41,772 nucleotides of DNA from Candidatus Gastranaerophilales bacterium (lineage in GTDB: Bacteria; Cyanobacteriota; Vampirovibrionia; Gastranaerophilales; Gastranaerophilaceae). The notes beneath the pieces were generated by a model that was not told the DNA's origin, did no database searches, and worked only from the letters and a program-made list of their open reading frames with translations. The translations under genes and the position numbers were made by a program. Every line of letters begins with the position of its first letter. Position 1 is the first letter of the stretch. The stretch spans positions 1 through 41,772 of the forward strand of contig CANQJQ010000003.1 in NCBI GenBank assembly GCA_947624265.1, written 5' to 3'. This document shows positions 745-20,156 of this stretch, in pieces.

Positions 745-799
745 CTTGGGGGGGGGTAAAAGTGGTATAATTATTTTGTTTACAAATTTGGGTGTTTTT
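745..799 (+). promoter_or_regulatory. Poly-G (G9) promoter-like element, copy 1
   Basis: A run of nine G (748-756) is followed after nine bases by a perfect TATAAT (766-771) and then by the ATG of the TPR gene at 800. A TTGTCT at 741-746 would be a -35 with a 19-bp spacer that contains the G run, so slippage in the run would change promoter spacing. Poly-G spacers of this kind control porA in Neisseria meningitidis. The same element recurs at 3544-3598. An alternative is translational: with ten G, the ATG at 736 would read in frame into the TPR gene. No transcript data are available. Confidence 0.55.
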
Positions 800-1843
800 A
801 TGTGTAATGATAAAGAGAATATAGAAAAGGGAAAAAACAACAAACAAAGTTGGTGGAAAAATGTTGGGTTAAAAAAAATCCTGCAAATCTTATTTATTGG
901 AATTATTGTAGTGTTTATTATTATTTTTTCTATACATCAAATTATTGATTTAAAAATAAGTAGTTATATTAAAAATAATGAAATTAATAATGCATATAAA
1001 TTACTCAATATTTCTTATAATATAAATCTTCCTATTTTCAAAAAAAATCAATTTTCCCTTGAAAAATTATATAAAATGGCTTGTATTGACTTTAGCATAG
1101 GTAATACCGAACAAAGTTTAGAAAAATTTTATTATATTGAAAAAAATTTAAAGAATAAAAAAACTGAAATTTACCTATCTACATTAGCAAATATTATTTC
1201 TATAATTTATTTAAATGGTGATTATGAAAATGCCAAAAAATATATAAAATTTTTGATAATAAACGGTAATGAAAATATTGAAAGATTATCATTTCTGGTA
1301 AAATTTAGTTACTTGTTACAAAATAATGAAGATACATTAAAATATTATAAAAAATTTATTGAGTTAAATCCTAATAATAAAAATGACAAATTTATATATA
1401 TACTTAATCTGATTGAAATATATTCTATGTTTAATCAAGATAAAGTAATAAATAAAAAAGATATAGATTATATTCTTCACTTTATGAATAATGAACAAAC
1501 AGATTATACAAAATATCTTACAAGTAATGCTCTTGCTGAATATTATTTAAAGCAAAAAAATAAAGAAAAATCGTTATTTTATACCTTAGAATTAGAAAAG
1601 TTCATAGAAGAATACAACCCATCATCATTAAGATACTATTTTTATGTGTCATACCTAATGTATAGAAATAATGAAAGAGATAAAGCATTGCAAGTATTAG
1701 AAAAACTTAAAAATGATAAGCAATTTACGGCGCAAAACAATAAATATAAAATTTGTCTGGATTCTTATACTGATTTATATATGAAAAATATAAATATAAA
1801 TAATGTTTTTTGTAGAAATTTACTGGAAATTAGGGGAATATAA
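800..1843 (+). CDS. Single-pass membrane TPR-like protein, possibly 3'-frameshifted
   Basis: About 347 residues from the ATG at 800. A TTG at 746, inside the G-tract element, would add 18 residues but has no ribosome-binding site. Residues near 30-50 form one transmembrane helix after a basic cytoplasmic N-terminus. The rest is a run of degenerate helical pairs typical of TPR/Sel1-like solenoids (for example YLNGDYENAKKYIKFL and YYKKFIELNPNN). The gene is visibly more AT-rich than its neighbours, with many AAA/AAT/TTA codons, suggesting different ancestry. Near the 3' end a T6 run (about 1806-1811) precedes a second open frame that reads sensibly to a stop at 1911-1913 and ends in a TPR-like LVLNPTNE. 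A one-base shift may therefore have truncated it. No specific function is recognised. Confidence 0.65.
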   Translation: MCNDKENIEKGKNNKQSWWKNVGLKKILQILFIGIIVVFIIIFSIHQIIDLKISSYIKNNEINNAYKLLNISYNINLPIFKKNQFSLEKLYKMACIDFSIGNTEQSLEKFYYIEKNLKNKKTEIYLSTLANIISIIYLNGDYENAKKYIKFLIINGNENIERLSFLVKFSYLLQNNEDTLKYYKKFIELNPNNKNDKFIYILNLIEIYSMFNQDKVINKKDIDYILHFMNNEQTDYTKYLTSNALAEYYLKQKNKEKSLFYTLELEKFIEEYNPSSLRYYFYVSYLMYRNNERDKALQVLEKLKNDKQFTAQNNKYKICLDSYTDLYMKNININNVFCRNLLEIRGI

Positions 1844-2025: not shown

Positions 2026-2304
2026 ATGAATAATCTGTTTATAAATCAAAAAACGCCCAATGAAATTGCGAAAAATTTAGCGGATAAAATTAAAAAAAAC
2101 CGTAAAAAATTAAAGATTTCGCAGGAAATTTTAGCGCAAAAATCAGGTGTTAGTTTAGGCAGCATTAAAAGATTTGAAACAAAATATGAAATTTCTCTGC
2201 AATCGCTTATAAAAATTACAATTGCACTTAATTTAGATAATGACATTGAAAATTTATTTACACAAAAAACTTACACTTCAATCGATGAGGTAATTAATGA
2301 ATAA
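2026..2304 (+). CDS. hipB: HipB-like XRE-family antitoxin
   Basis: A 92-residue protein with a helix-turn-helix of the XRE/Cro class at roughly residues 14-72 (RKKLKISQEILAQKSGVS, then SIKRFETKYEISLQSLIKI). It is immediately followed by a HipA-like kinase, whose start overlaps this gene by 8 bases, so the two are translationally coupled. In HipBA systems the antitoxin binds and neutralises the kinase and represses the operon. The palindromes at 1969-1984 and 2010-2025 are the likely operators. No Shine-Dalgarno precedes the ATG; see the promoter entry. Confidence 0.88.
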   Translation: MNNLFINQKTPNEIAKNLADKIKKNRKKLKISQEILAQKSGVSLGSIKRFETKYEISLQSLIKITIALNLDNDIENLFTQKTYTSIDEVINE

Positions 2305-3403
2305 TTATAAATACCTTAAAGTTTTTTATAATGATAAATTAGTCGGAACCTTAGCTAAAACGCCCGACAGGCTCGTTGCTTTTGAATATGACAGCGAATG
2401 GATTAATTCAGGTTTTAGCATTTCACCGTTCTCACTCCCGCTTGAAAAAAAAGTATATTTGCCGAAATTTGAACCGTTTGACGGTTTATTTGGGGTGTTT
2501 AATGACAGTCTGCCTGACGGTTGGGGAAGATTACTTGTTGACAGATTTTTGCTTAAAAACAAAATTAACCCAAGCGAAATTGATAATTTGAATCGTCTTG
2601 CGGTTGTTCAAGAAAGCGGTATGGGAGCTTTAACATATAAACCCGAGCACAGATTTGAAACTTCAAAAGAAGAATCCGATTATGATAAACTTGCTAATGA
2701 ATGTTCAAAAATATTAGAGTCGCAAAATTCGGATAATTTAGATGAATTGTTTAAACTTGGAGGCTCATCAGGCGGTGCAAGACCGAAAATTCTTACTAAA
2801 ATAAATAATGAAGATTGGATAATCAAATTTCCGTCTTCACAAGATTCTAAAAATATAGGAGAACAAGAATACAAATATTCGCTTTTGGCAAAAGCTTGCG
2901 GAATAAAAATGAGCGAAACCCAATTATTTCCGTCTAAAATATGTTCGGGATATTTTGGGATAAAGCGTTTTGATAGAGAAAACGGCAGAAAAATTCATAT
3001 GGTATCAGTCAGCGCCTTATTAGAAACAAGTCATCGCCTGCCCAATCTTGATTATAATATTTTGATGAAGCTGACTTTAGAATTAACCAAAAATTATCAA
3101 GATATTGAACAATTATACAGGCTTATGTGTTTTAATGTTTTTGCCCATAATAGAGATGACCACTCTAAGAATTTCTCGTTTTTATATGATGAAAATAAAA
3201 AAGAATGGCACTTGTCGCCTGCGTATGATTTGACTTACAGCTCGTCTTTCAACGGAGAACACGCAACAACAATCAACGGCGAAGGTAAAAATCCGAGTTT
3301 GGAAAATATTTTAGCAGTTGCAAAAAATATTGGAATAAAAGAAAAATCGGCTCGCGAAATCGCTCTTGAGATTAAAGAAAAATGCTTATCATTAGTTGAT
3401 TAA
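2297..3403 (+). CDS. hipA: HipA-like serine/threonine kinase toxin
   Basis: A 368-residue protein with the layout of HipA: an N-terminal lobe with the coupling motif FNDSLPDGWGRLLVD (near residues 70-85), a glycine/serine-rich loop GGSSGGARPK at about 155-164, a catalytic segment AHNRDDHSKNF near 283-293, and the metal-binding SPAYDL near 307-312. The catalytic Asp and the downstream Asp are both present, so it is predicted active. It is shorter than E. coli HipA (about 440). E. coli HipA phosphorylates glutamyl-tRNA synthetase; the target here is unknown, though a gltX gene lies at 39112 in the same window. Confidence 0.88.
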   Translation: MNNYKYLKVFYNDKLVGTLAKTPDRLVAFEYDSEWINSGFSISPFSLPLEKKVYLPKFEPFDGLFGVFNDSLPDGWGRLLVDRFLLKNKINPSEIDNLNRLAVVQESGMGALTYKPEHRFETSKEESDYDKLANECSKILESQNSDNLDELFKLGGSSGGARPKILTKINNEDWIIKFPSSQDSKNIGEQEYKYSLLAKACGIKMSETQLFPSKICSGYFGIKRFDRENGRKIHMVSVSALLETSHRLPNLDYNILMKLTLELTKNYQDIEQLYRLMCFNVFAHNRDDHSKNFSFLYDENKKEWHLSPAYDLTYSSSFNGEHATTINGEGKNPSLENILAVAKNIGIKEKSAREIALEIKEKCLSLVD

Positions 3404-3543: not shown

Positions 3544-3598
3544 CTTGGGGGGGGGGTAAAAGTGGTATAATTACTATGTTTACAAGCTTAGGTGTTTA
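3544..3598 (+). promoter_or_regulatory. Poly-G (G10) promoter-like element, copy 2, without an attached gene
   Basis: A second copy of the 745-799 element. It has ten G (3547-3556), then the same 17 bases including TATAAT at 3566-3571, then about 20 of 27 matching bases. TTGCCT at 3540-3545 would be a -35 at 20-bp spacing. No credible plus-strand gene follows before the convergent gene at 3645, so it is probably an orphan copy or the remains of a lost gene. The rest of the 3404-3644 gap shows no recognisable gene. Confidence 0.5.
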
Positions 3599-13968: not shown

Positions 13969-15324
13969 ATGTTTAAAAAAGTATTGATTGCAAACAGAGG
14001 CGAGGTAGCGGTAAGAATAATAAGAGCCTGCAGGGAAATAGGAATTCCAACGGTTGCAGTATACTCTCAGGCTGATGCAAATTCTCTGCATGTAAGTTTG
14101 GCAACGGAAGCATACTGTATAGGCCCGAATGAAAGTTCAAAGAGTTATTTAAATATACCTGCAATAATATCAGCAGCTTTGGTATCAGGAGCGGATGCAA
14201 TCCATCCCGGATACGGTTTTATGTCAGAAAGAGCTGATTTTGCCGAGATTTGTGCAGAACACAATATTAAATTTATAGGTCCATCACCTGAATCTATGCA
14301 ATTAATGGGCGATAAAGCAACAGCAAGAAAAACCATGGCATCTAAAAATGTACCTATCACCCCCGGGACCGGTATCATTACCGATATTGAAGAAGCCAAA
14401 AAAGCGGCTAAAGAGTTTGGTTACCCTGTTATTGTTAAAGCAACCGCAGGTGGTGGCGGTAAGGGTATGAGAGTTGCCAATAACGATGCAGAGCTTGAAC
14501 AAAATATTACTCTTTGCCGTCAGGAAGCTGAAAAGTTTTTCGGCAACCCTGATGTTTATATGGAAAAATATTTGGTAAATCCAAGACACATTGAGGTTCA
14601 AATTATTGCTGATAAATTCGGTAATGTAGTACATTTAGGCGAAAGAGACTGCTCTATCCAAAGAAGACATCAAAAGCTTGTGGAAGAAGCACCATCACCC
14701 GCAGTAAGCGAAGAAGTTCGTAAAAAATTAGGCGATGCTGCCATTAGAGCCGCTAAAGCAGCTAATTATGAAGGCGTTGGTACTATTGAATTCTTACTTG
14801 ATAAAGATAAAAATTTCTATTTTATGGAAATGAATACAAGACTTCAGGTAGAACATGGTATTTCCGAAATGATTTCTAACGTTGATATAGTCAGAGAGCA
14901 AATTAATATAGCGGCAGGAAACCCCTTATCATTTAAACAAGAAGATATTAAACTATACGGGCATGCAATAGAATGCCGTATTAATGCGGAGGATCCCGAC
15001 CGAAACTTCCTGCCCGCCCCTGGTGAAATCAACGGTTATATTCCTCCGGGAGGTTTCGGAGTCAGAGTTGATTCCCACGTTTATTCAGGCTATAAAATTC
15101 CGCCTTACTATGATTCTTTAATAAGTAAAGTTATGTGTTGGGCGCCTACGCGCGAAGAAGCAAGACGCAGAATGTACCGCGCTCTTAAAGAATATGTTAT
15201 TACCGGGGTAAAAACAACACTCCCCTTCTATCAGGAGCTTATTGAAGATGAAGTATTTATAAGCGGTAATTTTGATACGGGCTTTATGAATACCTACAAG
15301 CAAAATAAAGAAAAAGAGCAATAA
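13969..15324 (+). CDS. accC: Biotin carboxylase subunit of acetyl-CoA carboxylase
   Basis: 451 residues, the usual length. N-terminal FKKVLIANRGEVAVRIIRA, the ATP-grasp glycine loop KATAGGGGKGMRVA near 156-169, the carboxylase signature YMEKYLVNPRHIEVQI near 198-213, and the catalytic FMEMNTRLQVEHGISEMI near 285-302 are all present. The usual HPVTE is HGISE here, a mild variation. It carboxylates the biotin on AccB using bicarbonate and ATP. No accA/accD are in the window. Confidence 0.97.
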   Translation: MFKKVLIANRGEVAVRIIRACREIGIPTVAVYSQADANSLHVSLATEAYCIGPNESSKSYLNIPAIISAALVSGADAIHPGYGFMSERADFAEICAEHNIKFIGPSPESMQLMGDKATARKTMASKNVPITPGTGIITDIEEAKKAAKEFGYPVIVKATAGGGGKGMRVANNDAELEQNITLCRQEAEKFFGNPDVYMEKYLVNPRHIEVQIIADKFGNVVHLGERDCSIQRRHQKLVEEAPSPAVSEEVRKKLGDAAIRAAKAANYEGVGTIEFLLDKDKNFYFMEMNTRLQVEHGISEMISNVDIVREQINIAAGNPLSFKQEDIKLYGHAIECRINAEDPDRNFLPAPGEINGYIPPGGFGVRVDSHVYSGYKIPPYYDSLISKVMCWAPTREEARRRMYRALKEYVITGVKTTLPFYQELIEDEVFISGNFDTGFMNTYKQNKEKEQ

Positions 15325-15410: not shown

Positions 15411-16205
15411 TTAATTTTCATCATTTTCGGGTTTTACGACTGTTGTTATACCCAATAAAGCCTTAAAAAAGTCTTTTATTGAAGAACCTTTATCTTGTCC
15501 TGCTTTTACTGTACCAAAGGCTCCGCCTTCAGTCGCTCTATCTAAAAGTTCTTTAAAATTTTGTCCTGCTTTTACTGTACCAAAAGCTCCACCTTCAAGC
15601 GCTCTATCTACCAGTTCTTTAAAATTTTGTCCTGCTTCTACTGTACCAAAGGCTCCACCTTCAAGCGCTCTATCTACAAGTTCTTTAAAATTTTGTCCTG
15701 CTTCTACCGTGCCAAAGGCTCCGCCTTCAATCGCTCTATCTACAAGTTCTTTAAAATTTTGTCCTGCTTCTACCGTGCCAAAGGCTCCGCCTTCAAGCGC
15801 TCTATCTACAAGTTCTTTAAAATTTTGTCCTGCTTCTACTGTACTAAAGGCTCCGCCTTCAGTCGCTCTATCTAAAAGTTCTTTAAAATTTTGTCCTGCT
15901 TTTACTGTGCCAAAGGCTCCGCCTTCAAGCGCTCTATCTACGGCGTCCTCTAAAGCTGATCCTTCTGCACCTGCTTTTACTACTGCATTAGCTCCACCTA
16001 AAATTGCTCCTTTTACCGCATCCTCAAAAGCTGATCCTTCTGCACCTGCTTTTACTACACCAAGGGCGCCTGTAACTGCTCCTTCTACGGCATCCTCAAA
16101 AATAGGTTTTTCAGTTCCTTCATCCTCTTTGGGTGTATCAGTCTCTTGATTTTCTTGAGGTTTAACAACAGCTGATAATCCTATTAATTTTTCTACAAAA
16201 CTCAT
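15411..16205 (-). CDS. Tandem 22-residue repeat protein, function unknown
   Basis: 264 residues without signal peptide or membrane helix. About residues 87-245 hold six units of NFKELVDRALEGGAFGTV-type 22-residue repeats (66 bp each at the DNA level) plus partial flanking units. The preceding region has three related 25-residue units (EDAVxGAxxGGAxxVVKAGAEGSA), so the array seems to have grown from an older repeat. The N-terminus (VEKLIGLSAVVKPQ) and the C-terminus (FFKALLGITTVVKPE) are copies of one short module. Units differ mostly at Leu/Val, Ala-Leu/Ala-Thr and Glu/Lys positions. AAAGGAAA precedes the start, and a strong terminator follows. No family is recognised; a filament, sheet or adaptor is possible. 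Confidence 0.75.
   Translation of the reverse strand: MSFVEKLIGLSAVVKPQENQETDTPKEDEGTEKPIFEDAVEGAVTGALGVVKAGAEGSAFEDAVKGAILGGANAVVKAGAEGSALEDAVDRALEGGAFGTVKAGQNFKELLDRATEGGAFSTVEAGQNFKELVDRALEGGAFGTVEAGQNFKELVDRAIEGGAFGTVEAGQNFKELVDRALEGGAFGTVEAGQNFKELVDRALEGGAFGTVKAGQNFKELLDRATEGGAFGTVKAGQDKGSSIKDFFKALLGITTVVKPENDEN
15497..15943 (-). repeat. 66-bp tandem repeat array inside the repeat-protein gene
   Basis: Units recur at exact 66-base spacing: a TTCTTTAAAATTTTGTCC word starts at 15549, 15615, 15681, 15747, 15813 and 15879. Copies are nearly identical, which makes unit-number variation by recombination likely. It is a coding repeat in phase with the protein, not a CRISPR array. Confidence 0.93.
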
Positions 16206-16380: not shown

Positions 16381-17493
16381 ATGGAAGAAGTTAAGGGAAA
16401 ACAAAAGAAACCAATTATTAATTACATCAATGTCTTTAGAGGACTTGCAATTCTTTTAATACTTGCGGGACATACCCTGCAAATAGGGGCAAAAGGCAGC
16501 TGGGTAAATAATATTTCTTATGAAATATGGGCTGGCGGTACTGCTTTATTTATTTTTATTTCCGGATTTTTATTCCAGCATCTGTCTTATAAGTTTGAAT
16601 ATAAAAACTATATGCAAAAAAAATGGACAAATGTAATTATTCCATATATTTTAACAGCAATTCCGGGGATAATATTATGTTTTTGGATACCAAAAATCTA
16701 CGGCAACCCTTTTGAAGGGTTAAATCCGTTTTTACAGATAGGGGTTTTCCTTACTACAGGCAGAGTTCACAATGTTCCTGTTTGGTTTATACCAATGATT
16801 ATTATATTTTTTGTTATAAGTTTTTTACTTCTTTATTTGGAAAAAAAGAATATTTTATATAAGTTATTGCCCGTATTATTTTTGATTACACTTGTTATAC
16901 CAAGGTCGGATATAGAACCTGAGTGGGTTATAAATATGGACTACTGGCATAAATACTTGGCTTATATGGGTTATGTACTGAACGGATTTATACATTTTAC
17001 ATCTATGTATGTTTTTGGTATGTATTTATCCAAAAACAAAGATAAAATTGATATTTTCTACGATAAAAGACTTTTAATATTTGTTTTAATGATATTAACC
17101 GCAGGACTTGATGTTTATTTAAATCATAACAATATATATTTAAACGGAACAATATCTAAATTTTTCTTAACAGTTCTTGTTTTAGGATACTTAAAACATT
17201 ATGATGAACTTATAAAATCACACGAGAGAATAAATTCTTGGCTTGATGTAACCGCAAAATACAGCTTTGGACTGTTTTTTATCCATTGGTACTACGTATT
17301 TGCATTTAATAAACTTTTTAATATGCCAAAAGTACTGCCTGTCAATAGCTGTGGTCAGTTAATTTATTCCTCCGCTCTTGCCTCCTTAAGATACATATTT
17401 GTTTTAGCCGTAAGCTTTTTAACCTTATTTATTCTTAAAAAACTATTAAATAAATTAAAAATAGAAAAAACAAGAACTTTCATAGGGGTTTAA
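16381..17493 (+). CDS. Acyltransferase family 3 membrane protein
   Basis: 370 residues with about ten hydrophobic segments. The first helix region NVFRGLAILLILAGHTLQ carries the RGxAxxxxxxGH-type arginine and catalytic histidine of acyltransferase family 3 (OatA/WecH/NodX type), and the end is a short basic tail. These proteins O-acetylate or O-succinylate extracytoplasmic sugars, peptidoglycan or lipids. A -10 (TAAAAT, 16351-16356) with a TG extension lies upstream. It neighbours a glycosyltransferase and galE on the opposite strand, so it probably modifies a surface glycan. Confidence 0.85.
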   Translation: MEEVKGKQKKPIINYINVFRGLAILLILAGHTLQIGAKGSWVNNISYEIWAGGTALFIFISGFLFQHLSYKFEYKNYMQKKWTNVIIPYILTAIPGIILCFWIPKIYGNPFEGLNPFLQIGVFLTTGRVHNVPVWFIPMIIIFFVISFLLLYLEKKNILYKLLPVLFLITLVIPRSDIEPEWVINMDYWHKYLAYMGYVLNGFIHFTSMYVFGMYLSKNKDKIDIFYDKRLLIFVLMILTAGLDVYLNHNNIYLNGTISKFFLTVLVLGYLKHYDELIKSHERINSWLDVTAKYSFGLFFIHWYYVFAFNKLFNMPKVLPVNSCGQLIYSSALASLRYIFVLAVSFLTLFILKKLLNKLKIEKTRTFIGV

Positions 17494-17542: not shown

Positions 17543-18220
17543 TTATTTTTTTTCAAATACATAATAATCAGATAATAAGTCATTAAATTTTTTAGATATT
17601 TCTTCTATATTTTCTTTCTTCCAACCTAAAGAAGTAAGCTTTGATATAATAATATCTTTATCCTCAAGATTTAAGTTGATAAAATATATTTTATTTTTTT
17701 CTTTTAAAAATTGAGAAATGTCCGCATCATCTATAATTATTTTATTATCTTTGTTTACATATTTTACTGAAAAATTATTATTTCTTTTAATTTTATTTAC
17801 ATCAACTACTATCTTGTTATAATGATTGCAATATGTACAAGGATTTTCACGCATTATTATAACTGTATTATCGTCTAACTCATCTAATTGTTCCATTCTG
17901 TTTAAAGTATCTATAGTTCTGGAATTATCAGTAATTAGAGGAAATAATACATTAAGTTTTTTAATATATAGAGAAAATAAAATTGCAAGTATAAGAATTA
18001 TTGTAAAATTTAAAATACCAATAAACCGATTTTTTCCGCAATAATCAAATATTTTACAAGTAATTATAATTATTGACGGAGTAAGAAATAATATTACACG
18101 ATTACAAAAAGGATAAAATCCTAAATATGATAATATTAAGAAAAAATATACGGGTATAATTAAAAATAAACCGTTAAAGTTTAGTGATAACTTACCCCCC
18201 CCCCAGCTCATTTTTCTCAA
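17543..18220 (-). pseudogene. C-terminal half of GT-C glycosyltransferase, out of frame with the N-terminal half
   Basis: 225 residues. Its first residues MRKMSWGGGK read through the end of the preceding gene and the G10 tract; no Shine-Dalgarno supports an independent start. Residues about 10-100 are hydrophobic membrane helices continuing the upstream half, and the rest is a soluble domain with no recognised motif. With nine or twelve G at 18195-18204 the upstream frame would read straight into this one, giving a ~525-residue protein. The piece is therefore best read as the second half of one gene, in the OFF state or broken in the assembly. Confidence 0.78.
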
Positions 18221-19121
18221 TTTTTATACAAATTAAAACACTTCCTATTAAAAATAATATTAAAATAAATAATAAAACGCCGTGAGGAAGCATAGCAGTA
18301 ATTCGAGAATCAAAAAATTCATGCTGAAAAAATATAAAATGTATAATAGAATTTAAAGCTTTAAAAGAATTCGGCGTAAAATAATATAAGTTTGACATCC
18401 ATTGTTCTTTTAATCCGTCATCAGCCTGCATTTGTATAATATAGCTATAATAGTTAACCAAAATAAAAGTTAATGTAAAAATTTGAAAAATGATTATTTT
18501 TATAATATTCTCCGAATTTTTATAAATGAAGTTTTTTAATAATAATAAAAATGAAAATATTTCAATTATTACAATTGATGTAATTGACGAATATACCATT
18601 ATTAAAGACCCTAAAATACACAAAATCAGTTTTTTAGGATTAATTTTATCTAAACTATTGCCGAGAACTAGGTTTAACATCAAAAGCATACAAAACAAAT
18701 CATAAGAATACGGTTTTATATAGTGCGAAAAATGTATGTAACTATAATTAAAACAATATAAAAAAAGACAAAAAACAATTAGTAATTTGTTTTTAAAAAC
18801 TTTTTCAAGTAATCTAAAAAACAAGAAAAAGGATAAAAATTCTGCAAGCAAAGAAAAAAGTTTATAAACAGTAAAATCTAATCCCCATATTTTATAAATA
18901 AATTTCATTAAGCATCTGTATAAAGGTAAAAAATTGGTTCCTTGTATAAAATTGAAAAAAATATCATGTAAAGGAACAAAAGAACCCCACAAACTGTGAC
19001 ATTCATCTCCAATCATATAGTATCGGTTATTTATAAGAGAAATTATTCGAATTGCAAATCCGATAATAAACAATAAAATTATTGCAAAATAGTATAAATT
19101 AAATTTATTAGTTTTTTCCAT
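18192..19121 (-). CDS. GT-C (family 39-like) membrane glycosyltransferase, N-terminal half, phase-OFF state
   Basis: 309 residues ending in GGG-stop created by the G10 tract. It has about eight membrane helices. The first extracytoplasmic loop carries GDE at residues 38-40, the Asp-Glu pair used by lipid-linked-sugar GT-C enzymes of the PMT/ArnT group. Its reading frame joins the downstream 225-residue frame if one G is lost (see the poly-G feature). An AGGTGA lies before the ATG. It is followed upstream on the same strand by galE, suggesting an epimerised UDP-sugar pathway and transfer of a sugar to a surface polymer or protein. Both halves are more AT-rich than galE. Confidence 0.82.
   Translation of the reverse strand: MEKTNKFNLYYFAIILLFIIGFAIRIISLINNRYYMIGDECHSLWGSFVPLHDIFFNFIQGTNFLPLYRCLMKFIYKIWGLDFTVYKLFSLLAEFLSFFLFFRLLEKVFKNKLLIVFCLFLYCFNYSYIHFSHYIKPYSYDLFCMLLMLNLVLGNSLDKINPKKLILCILGSLIMVYSSITSIVIIEIFSFLLLLKNFIYKNSENIIKIIIFQIFTLTFILVNYYSYIIQMQADDGLKEQWMSNLYYFTPNSFKALNSIIHFIFFQHEFFDSRITAMLPHGVLLFILILFLIGSVLICIKIEKNELGGG
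18195..18204 (-). repeat. G10 homopolymer in the glycosyltransferase reading frame (phase-variation switch)
   Basis: Ten C on the plus strand, ten G on the coding strand. With ten G the gene stops at 18194-18192; with nine (or twelve) the two halves fuse into one protein. Slipped-strand mispairing of poly-G is the classic ON/OFF mechanism in surface glycosyltransferase genes, for example in Campylobacter and Helicobacter. Confidence 0.85.
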
Positions 19122-19169: not shown

Positions 19170-20156
19170 TTATATATTTTTTGATTTTTCCCACAGATAT
19201 GCGGTTTTTATGCTGTCTTTAAGAGAATGTTTACAATTCCAGCCGAGGAGTTCTTTTGCTTTATAAGAATTTGCCAGTAAAACTGCCGCATCTCCCGCTC
19301 GTCTTTGTTCATATTGAACTTGTATTTCTTTATTGGTTAAGGCTTTTACCGTATCAAATACTTCTTTTACACTGCTGCCTTTTTCAGTCCCAAGGTTAAA
19401 ACAATCCGATTTATTGTTTTTCAATAAATATAAGTATGCGAGTCTGTGAGCTTCCGTTAAATCTTCTACATTTACATAATCTCTTATACAGGTGCCGTCG
19501 GGGGTAGAATAGTCAGTACCATAAATTTTAAAAATTCTGTTTTTATCAAAAATTGATTTTAAAATATTCGGGATTAAATGAGTTTCAGGCTCGTGCCATT
19601 CACCCGTTCTGATTTCACTATCAGCCCCTGCTACATTAAAATATCTTAATTTTATTGATTTTAAACCGTATGCTTTATCATAATCATCTAAAATTTGTTC
19701 AATTATGTATTTTGTTTTGCCATATGGATTTATCGGATTTTTGGGGTGATTTTCATCTATCGGAGTATATTGCGGTTCCCCGTAGATTGCACAAGTTGAA
19801 GAAAATACTATTTTCTTTACGTTATTTTCTACCATAACATCCAAAAGGTTTATTGTTCCCAAAACATTATTTTTATAATATTTGGAAGGGTCTTCAACAC
19901 TTTGAGCCACTTCAATATAACCTGCAAAATGGATAACGCAGTCAATTTTATATTCTTTAAATACATTTTCAATATCAGATTTATTTTTTAAATCACCTTG
20001 GATAAAATGAACTTTTCCAAGAGTTTTAAGCTTATTAACCGTTTCAATATGCCCGTTTTCAAGGTTATCAAAAATAACAATTTCATCATTTGCACGCAGG
20101 AAATTAATAACACAATGACTTCCGATGTAGCCGGCTCCCCCCGTAATTAAAATCAT
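19170..20156 (-). CDS. galE: UDP-glucose 4-epimerase
   Basis: 328 residues, typical for GalE. GGAGYIGSH at residues 6-14 binds NAD, SSTCAIYGEP near 121-130 supplies the catalytic Ser/Thr, and the YGKTK motif (near 145-149) carries the catalytic Tyr and Lys. DYVNVEDLTEAH and QYEQRRAGDAA are further family segments. It interconverts UDP-glucose and UDP-galactose. The start shares one base with the mscS stop (TAATG), so it is translated from the mscS-galE message; the glycosyltransferase pair follows 48 bases downstream. Confidence 0.96.
   Translation of the reverse strand: MILITGGAGYIGSHCVINFLRANDEIVIFDNLENGHIETVNKLKTLGKVHFIQGDLKNKSDIENVFKEYKIDCVIHFAGYIEVAQSVEDPSKYYKNNVLGTINLLDVMVENNVKKIVFSSTCAIYGEPQYTPIDENHPKNPINPYGKTKYIIEQILDDYDKAYGLKSIKLRYFNVAGADSEIRTGEWHEPETHLIPNILKSIFDKNRIFKIYGTDYSTPDGTCIRDYVNVEDLTEAHRLAYLYLLKNNKSDCFNLGTEKGSSVKEVFDTVKALTNKEIQVQYEQRRAGDAAVLLANSYKAKELLGWNCKHSLKDSIKTAYLWEKSKNI

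Follow-up and report, generated by a model that had tools for sequence, protein, structure and literature searches.

Phase-variable glycosyltransferases are known from Neisseria, where lgtA, lgtC, lgtD and pglA carry a poly-G tract within the reading frame, while the porA-type promoter of Neisseria contains a poly-G spacer. In Campylobacter jejuni NCTC11168, 29 poly-G/poly-C contingency loci with runs of seven or more have been described (PMC4965091). Here, we analyze a window, meaning the whole stretch of DNA studied, of 41,772 nucleotides from the genome of an uncultured Candidatus Gastranaerophilales bacterium. One locus in it is very probably a contingency locus, in which a gene encoding a membrane glycosyltransferase of GT-C type is phase-variable, and is one of about 34 such switches in the genome. 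Candidatus Gastranaerophilales (Melainabacteria) are a non-photosynthetic sister lineage of the cyanobacteria known from gut metagenomes. The preliminary description of this DNA knew of no report of phase variation in the lineage, and a search of 5.4 million open papers likewise found none joining the two subjects, an absence that is no proof; the sole paper in that literature containing both Melainabacteria and phase variation concerns flagellins and is unrelated. What is new here is the lineage and the scale, not the mechanism.

Like its Neisseria counterparts, the gene carries poly-G within a glycosyltransferase reading frame; however, those enzymes have other glycosyltransferase folds, whereas the one described here is a putative GT-C membrane enzyme of a family without a close curated profile. 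The resemblance to C. jejuni extends to G/C runs of about 8–11 in glycan and surface genes, to a similar number of them per genome and to their placement both in reading frames and between genes. In contrast, the two phyla are unrelated, MutS and MutL are present here, and length variation was measured in C. jejuni while switching is here predicted from sequence.

The proposed switch is a G10 tract (18195–18204, minus strand) read directly from the sequence. It is immediately followed by a TAA (18194–18192) that terminates a 309-residue ATG frame on the minus strand (19121–18192) representing the N-terminal part of the glycosyltransferase. The C-terminal part (17543–18194, minus strand) lies beyond the tract in another frame, which stays open down to 17543 and encodes about 216 residues; the mechanically called ORF for this half (17543–18220) overlaps the tract. 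Changing the run length in silico yielded a single frame of 525 amino acids at 9 G and of 526 amino acids at 12 G, while the remaining lengths tried led to truncation at about 308–314 amino acids. The preliminary description had placed the end of the 309-residue half at the G10 run and had predicted that losing one G or gaining two would fuse the halves into a protein of about 525 residues, and both statements hold. Its remark that the C-terminal half lacks a Shine-Dalgarno sequence of its own needs to be qualified: the C-terminal frame has an ATG located 7 nt ahead of the tract, preceded by only a weak GAG. In the window, with a GC content of 31%, 8 G8 matches were seen compared with 0.12 expected from dinucleotide-preserving shuffles.

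Intact relatives of 505–527 residues are encoded in other species of the genus and are collinear, without gaps, with the N-terminal part followed by the C-terminal part. The N-terminal part shares 34–42% identity with approximately residues 1–315 of these proteins, and the C-terminal part abuts it, sharing 27–39% identity with approximately residues 304–525 of the same relatives over the longer matches; in the better-matching relatives the C-terminal alignment starts at about 304–316 and reaches the end. These relatives show that both halves derive from a single ancestral gene. At the junction, the intact relatives have no G or C run of six or more, so the tract is a derived insertion, located in a loop just before a conserved GLF..PVYFFLxLSxLxIYPFxNR segment.

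The closest ortholog, 76% identical in the N-terminal part, is found in a Candidatus Gastranaerophilales MAG (G029; record CANPYW01, Lapin-002). It carries a G9 run at the same site, compared with G10 in the window, and likewise falls out of frame, with a register that is not that of the window gene. The regions flanking the run differ by indels of −2 before and +7 after it, and because these are not multiples of three, the full-length register of G029 would be 10 rather than 9 or 12. The same split in close relatives had been named in the preliminary description as a finding that would speak against switching. G029 is indeed split as well; however, it has another run length and another ON register, and its flanks have gained indels of sizes not divisible by three, so this is not the fixed split that was meant. 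In the assemblies, the OFF state is thus found in the window gene as well as in its only close ortholog (G029), which we infer to reflect chance of state. Between the two, dN/dS (Nei-Gojobori) is 0.24 for the N-terminal and 0.35 for the C-terminal part, with nonsynonymous change depleted in both halves (Fisher p of 1e-14 and 3e-7, respectively). Judged by these substitution patterns, both halves are under purifying selection between the two species, which argues against decay. Such constraint is unexpected for a permanently silent C-terminal part, suggesting that read-through of the gene has taken place during much of the period after the two species diverged.

The preliminary description had called the product a GT-C protein with a GDE pair in the first external loop. 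The motif is present as I-G-D39-E40-C in that loop, and across 41 relatives the acidic pair is nearly invariant (D in all, E in at least 90%). The GT-C part of the assignment derives from relatives, since no Pfam match was obtained for the window protein itself and an AlphaFold model of the N-terminal part, built from two sequences, was of unusable quality (pLDDT 43.8). Matches to PMT_2 (PF13231; best 6.3e-9) were obtained for 17 of 41 intact family members, and matches to MT1671-like mannosyltransferase, ArnT and TMEM260-like models for single members; a PDB sequence search with family profiles gave no match. The Asp-Glu pair in the first loop, the hydrophobic multi-helix pattern and the profile matches of the relatives are shared with GT-C/PMT_2 (ArnT-like) enzymes, although the window protein itself matches no profile. 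Based on this family evidence, we take it as a GT-C-type membrane enzyme.

Both neighbors named in the preliminary description, galE and an acyltransferase, were found by Pfam match. A galE-like UDP-sugar epimerase gene (19170–20156, minus strand; PF01370/PF16363, E 6.5e-55 and 8.6e-59) is located 49 bp upstream of the glycosyltransferase gene on the same strand, and the two probably form one transcription unit. Downstream, a convergent gene encodes a membrane acyltransferase (Acyl_transf_3; 16381–17493, plus strand; PF01757, E 8.3e-26). These neighbors fit a glycan locus but prove nothing. Further along, the ORF at 15411–16205 contains an in-frame 66-bp tandem repeat (15495–15941; 6.8 copies, 93% matches).

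The tract is one of many in its genome. Over 1.65 Mb, 34 runs of eight or more were found compared with about 5.6 expected under a dinucleotide model. The run-length spectrum of the whole genome (G7 3, G8 4, G9 18, G10 10, G11 2) is non-monotonic with a peak at 9, unlike the decay of random run lengths. According to frame analysis of the 34 tracts, 16 lie within a single open frame and are ON in the assembly, at least 5 come between a start and the body of its gene (OFF) and 3 are of promoter type, with the rest located at gene ends, near starts or in ambiguous positions. The products of tract-bearing genes include several with typical phase-variable functions, namely an acyltransferase, GT2, polysaccharide pyruvyl transferase, RgpF, a TupA ATP-grasp protein, two AlgX/DHHW-like proteins, PglD-like transferases and giant Pmp-like proteins, as well as hexapeptide transferases, a phosphomannose-isomerase-like protein, DUF1796 and several radical-SAM enzymes. 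Three giant ORFs, with lengths from about 1,700 residues upwards, are found in L063, L071 and L074 (G000 contigs 13, 40 and 59), with G9–G10 at or just before the start and Chlamydia Pmp-type repeat matches in two of them. The GT2 gene of L064 has two G runs, at 14208–14218 and 15234–15242, one just before the start and one near the end. In L062, tandem AlgX/DHHW-like genes share an identical tract and flanks (726–734 and 2520–2528), both in frame as assembled.

Two promoter-type tracts are located in the window itself. The first, a G9 run (748–756, plus strand), lies in the spacer between TTGTCT (741–746) and TATAAT (766–771) and precedes a gene for a membrane protein with weak TPR matches (800–1843, plus strand) that probably starts at the ATG at 800. 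The second, a G10 run (3547–3556, plus strand; TATAAT at 3566–3571), is another copy of the same cassette, TTGnnn-(n)-Gn-TAAAAGTGG-TATAAT, with near-identical flanks; it is apparently geneless, runs into a convergent ORF and is perhaps the remnant of a lost paralog. Located between the two promoters (2026–3403) are a short HTH-like ORF and a HipA-family kinase gene (PF07804) that resemble a toxin-antitoxin pair. Across the genus, about 70 instances of a tract followed by TATAAT were counted, compared with 4 in a reversed control, and in 16 readable cases the run lies between the −35 and −10 elements with spacers of 17–20. Many cassettes precede a membrane-protein family with a common 5′ region and start (MSNDKENI...). 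These tracts may switch expression by spacing, as in porA-type promoters, with which they share the position between a TTG-type −35 element and TATAAT and the spacer of 17–20; what differs is the conserved TAAAAGTGG behind the tract and the recurrence of the cassette in numerous paralogs and species.

Tracts are also found elsewhere in the same glycosyltransferase family. Eight intact members have an in-frame G9–G10 or C9–C10 run at about codons 1, 161, 163, 204, 210, 332, 335 and 340, and four are out of frame, namely L116 and L117 (both split at the run), the window gene and G029. Tract sites over the different members thus fall at codons ~1, 161–163, 204–210, 305 and 332–340, and all tract-bearing members come from tract-rich genomes. 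The location of tracts at different points of one enzyme family, both in and out of frame, indicates that they were gained repeatedly.

Within one genus (41 species, each represented by one MAG), nine-G matches number 0–4 in some genomes and tens to about 290 in others. Long runs contribute to the highest of these counts, and some of them, at contig ends, may be sequencing artefacts. G013 and G019 contain poly-G stretches of at least 20, in G013 at contig ends, which inflate the raw counts and are probably artefacts of two-colour sequencing. Exact-G9 runs, counted over 241 genomes of the order, are patchily distributed and reach up to 63 per genome. MutS and MutL exceed the cut-off in G000 and in nearly all genomes of the genus, whether tract-rich or tract-poor. 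Loss of mismatch repair was therefore rejected as the cause of the many tracts, and slippage would not be helped by it. It should be noted that G032, which has the most exact-G9 runs (63), gave no MutL match at 96% completeness, while MutS is present. Type IV pilin-like genes with G9/C9 in a short leader were observed in G032 and G008 (L156, L160, L162–L164, L167–L170 and L175). The run lies just before the prepilin cleavage motif (FTLAEVLITL; PF07963 in several) and mostly out of frame with the upstream ATG; however, these regions had been selected for exact G9, and the uniformly OFF, uniformly G9 leaders were therefore discarded as evidence. In viral contigs, neither same-species length variants nor phage-borne relatives were found.

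The sequence following the tracts is biased as well. TA(A/G) directly follows 20 of the 34 long tracts in this genome (binomial p ~2e-16 against a 6% background). In 18 sampled genomes of the genus it follows 171 of 283 exact-G9 runs, compared with 19 in a mirrored control, a count inflated in some genomes by shared ancestry of paralogs. Genus-wide, TA(A/G) comes directly after about 60% of exact-G9 runs, with either strand coding, compared with about 6–7% in controls; in another tract-rich genus (g22) the bias is absent. Selection for a stop codon proved insufficient as an explanation: the bias is equally strong when the C strand codes, so the adjacent stop cannot be the whole reason. A broader reading, which we offer tentatively and consider possible rather than probable, is that Gastranaerophilales species vary their glycans, pilins and giant surface proteins by poly-G phase variation at multiple loci, which was gained or lost within one genus while mismatch repair is kept, and that some process or constraint in this genus gives rise to tracts, or preserves them, in the fixed context [C/T]-Gn-TA(A/G) with either strand coding.

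Transcriptional slippage or ribosomal frameshifting at the poly-G run might instead produce the full enzyme at all times, at reduced level and at any run length. Purifying selection on a C-terminal half that is out of frame in the DNA of both orthologs could be explained in this way, but the differing ON registers of the window gene and G029, the in-frame tracts of other family members and the three promoter tracts, where there is no frame to shift, make it improbable. Still less probable are two separately translated, functional subunits. The split in both close species, the constraint on both halves and, in the window, the C-frame ATG located 7 nt ahead of the tract would be expected for subunits; however, G029 has no equivalent start, its first listed one being an internal TTG within the first membrane segment, the more distant relatives are all single proteins, and neither a long G run as the breakpoint nor the roughly 33 other tracts would be explained. 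A frameshifted pseudogene, suggested by two out-of-frame genes among two close orthologs, is very hard to reconcile with the constraint on the C-terminal half (dN/dS 0.35, p=3e-7) and with the absence of additional stops and frameshifts from both halves of the gene in the two species. An error of sequencing or assembly in a whole gene, conceivable given that homopolymers are error-prone in a metagenome assembly and that artefact-like poly-G of at least 20 occurs at contig ends in some genomes of the genus, is equally implausible, as a long run is found at the same site in an independent MAG (G029), the 34 runs peak sharply at 9, no more than 0–4 nine-G matches occur in tract-poor members of the genus, and a one-base mistake would still leave a long G run.

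The phase-variable architecture proposed in the preliminary description is thus supported by the intact relatives, by an ortholog of other length and register, by constraint on both halves and by the genome-wide set of tracts. In a phase-variable gene of this type, slipped-strand mispairing at the poly-G run during replication would change its length by single bases. Run lengths that are multiples of three (9, 12) would yield the complete enzyme of about 525 amino acids (ON), while the assembled ten would stop translation at 309 amino acids, so that the final membrane segments and the C-terminal domain are not made (OFF). Depending on this state, a surface glycan may or may not receive a lipid-linked sugar from the enzyme, leaving the population mixed in surface structure; the roughly 34 proposed switches of the genome lie in reading frames and in promoters. 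The rate and reversibility of slippage, as well as the role in the glycan, the donor and the acceptor, are inferred.

If these tracts act as proposed, the poly-G switches would be as many as in C. jejuni NCTC11168, or more, and many seemingly split genes in such MAGs would be switches rather than pseudogenes, which should serve as a warning in their annotation. A seemingly harmless gut lineage thus seems to use a surface-changing device best known from pathogens. According to a 2025 review, the apparent restriction of multi-locus phase-variable genomes to pathogens is a major open question, for which database bias is suggested as one reason (PMC11868660). Because many switches and tract-poor species occur together in the same genus, this question may be testable here with existing metagenome reads.
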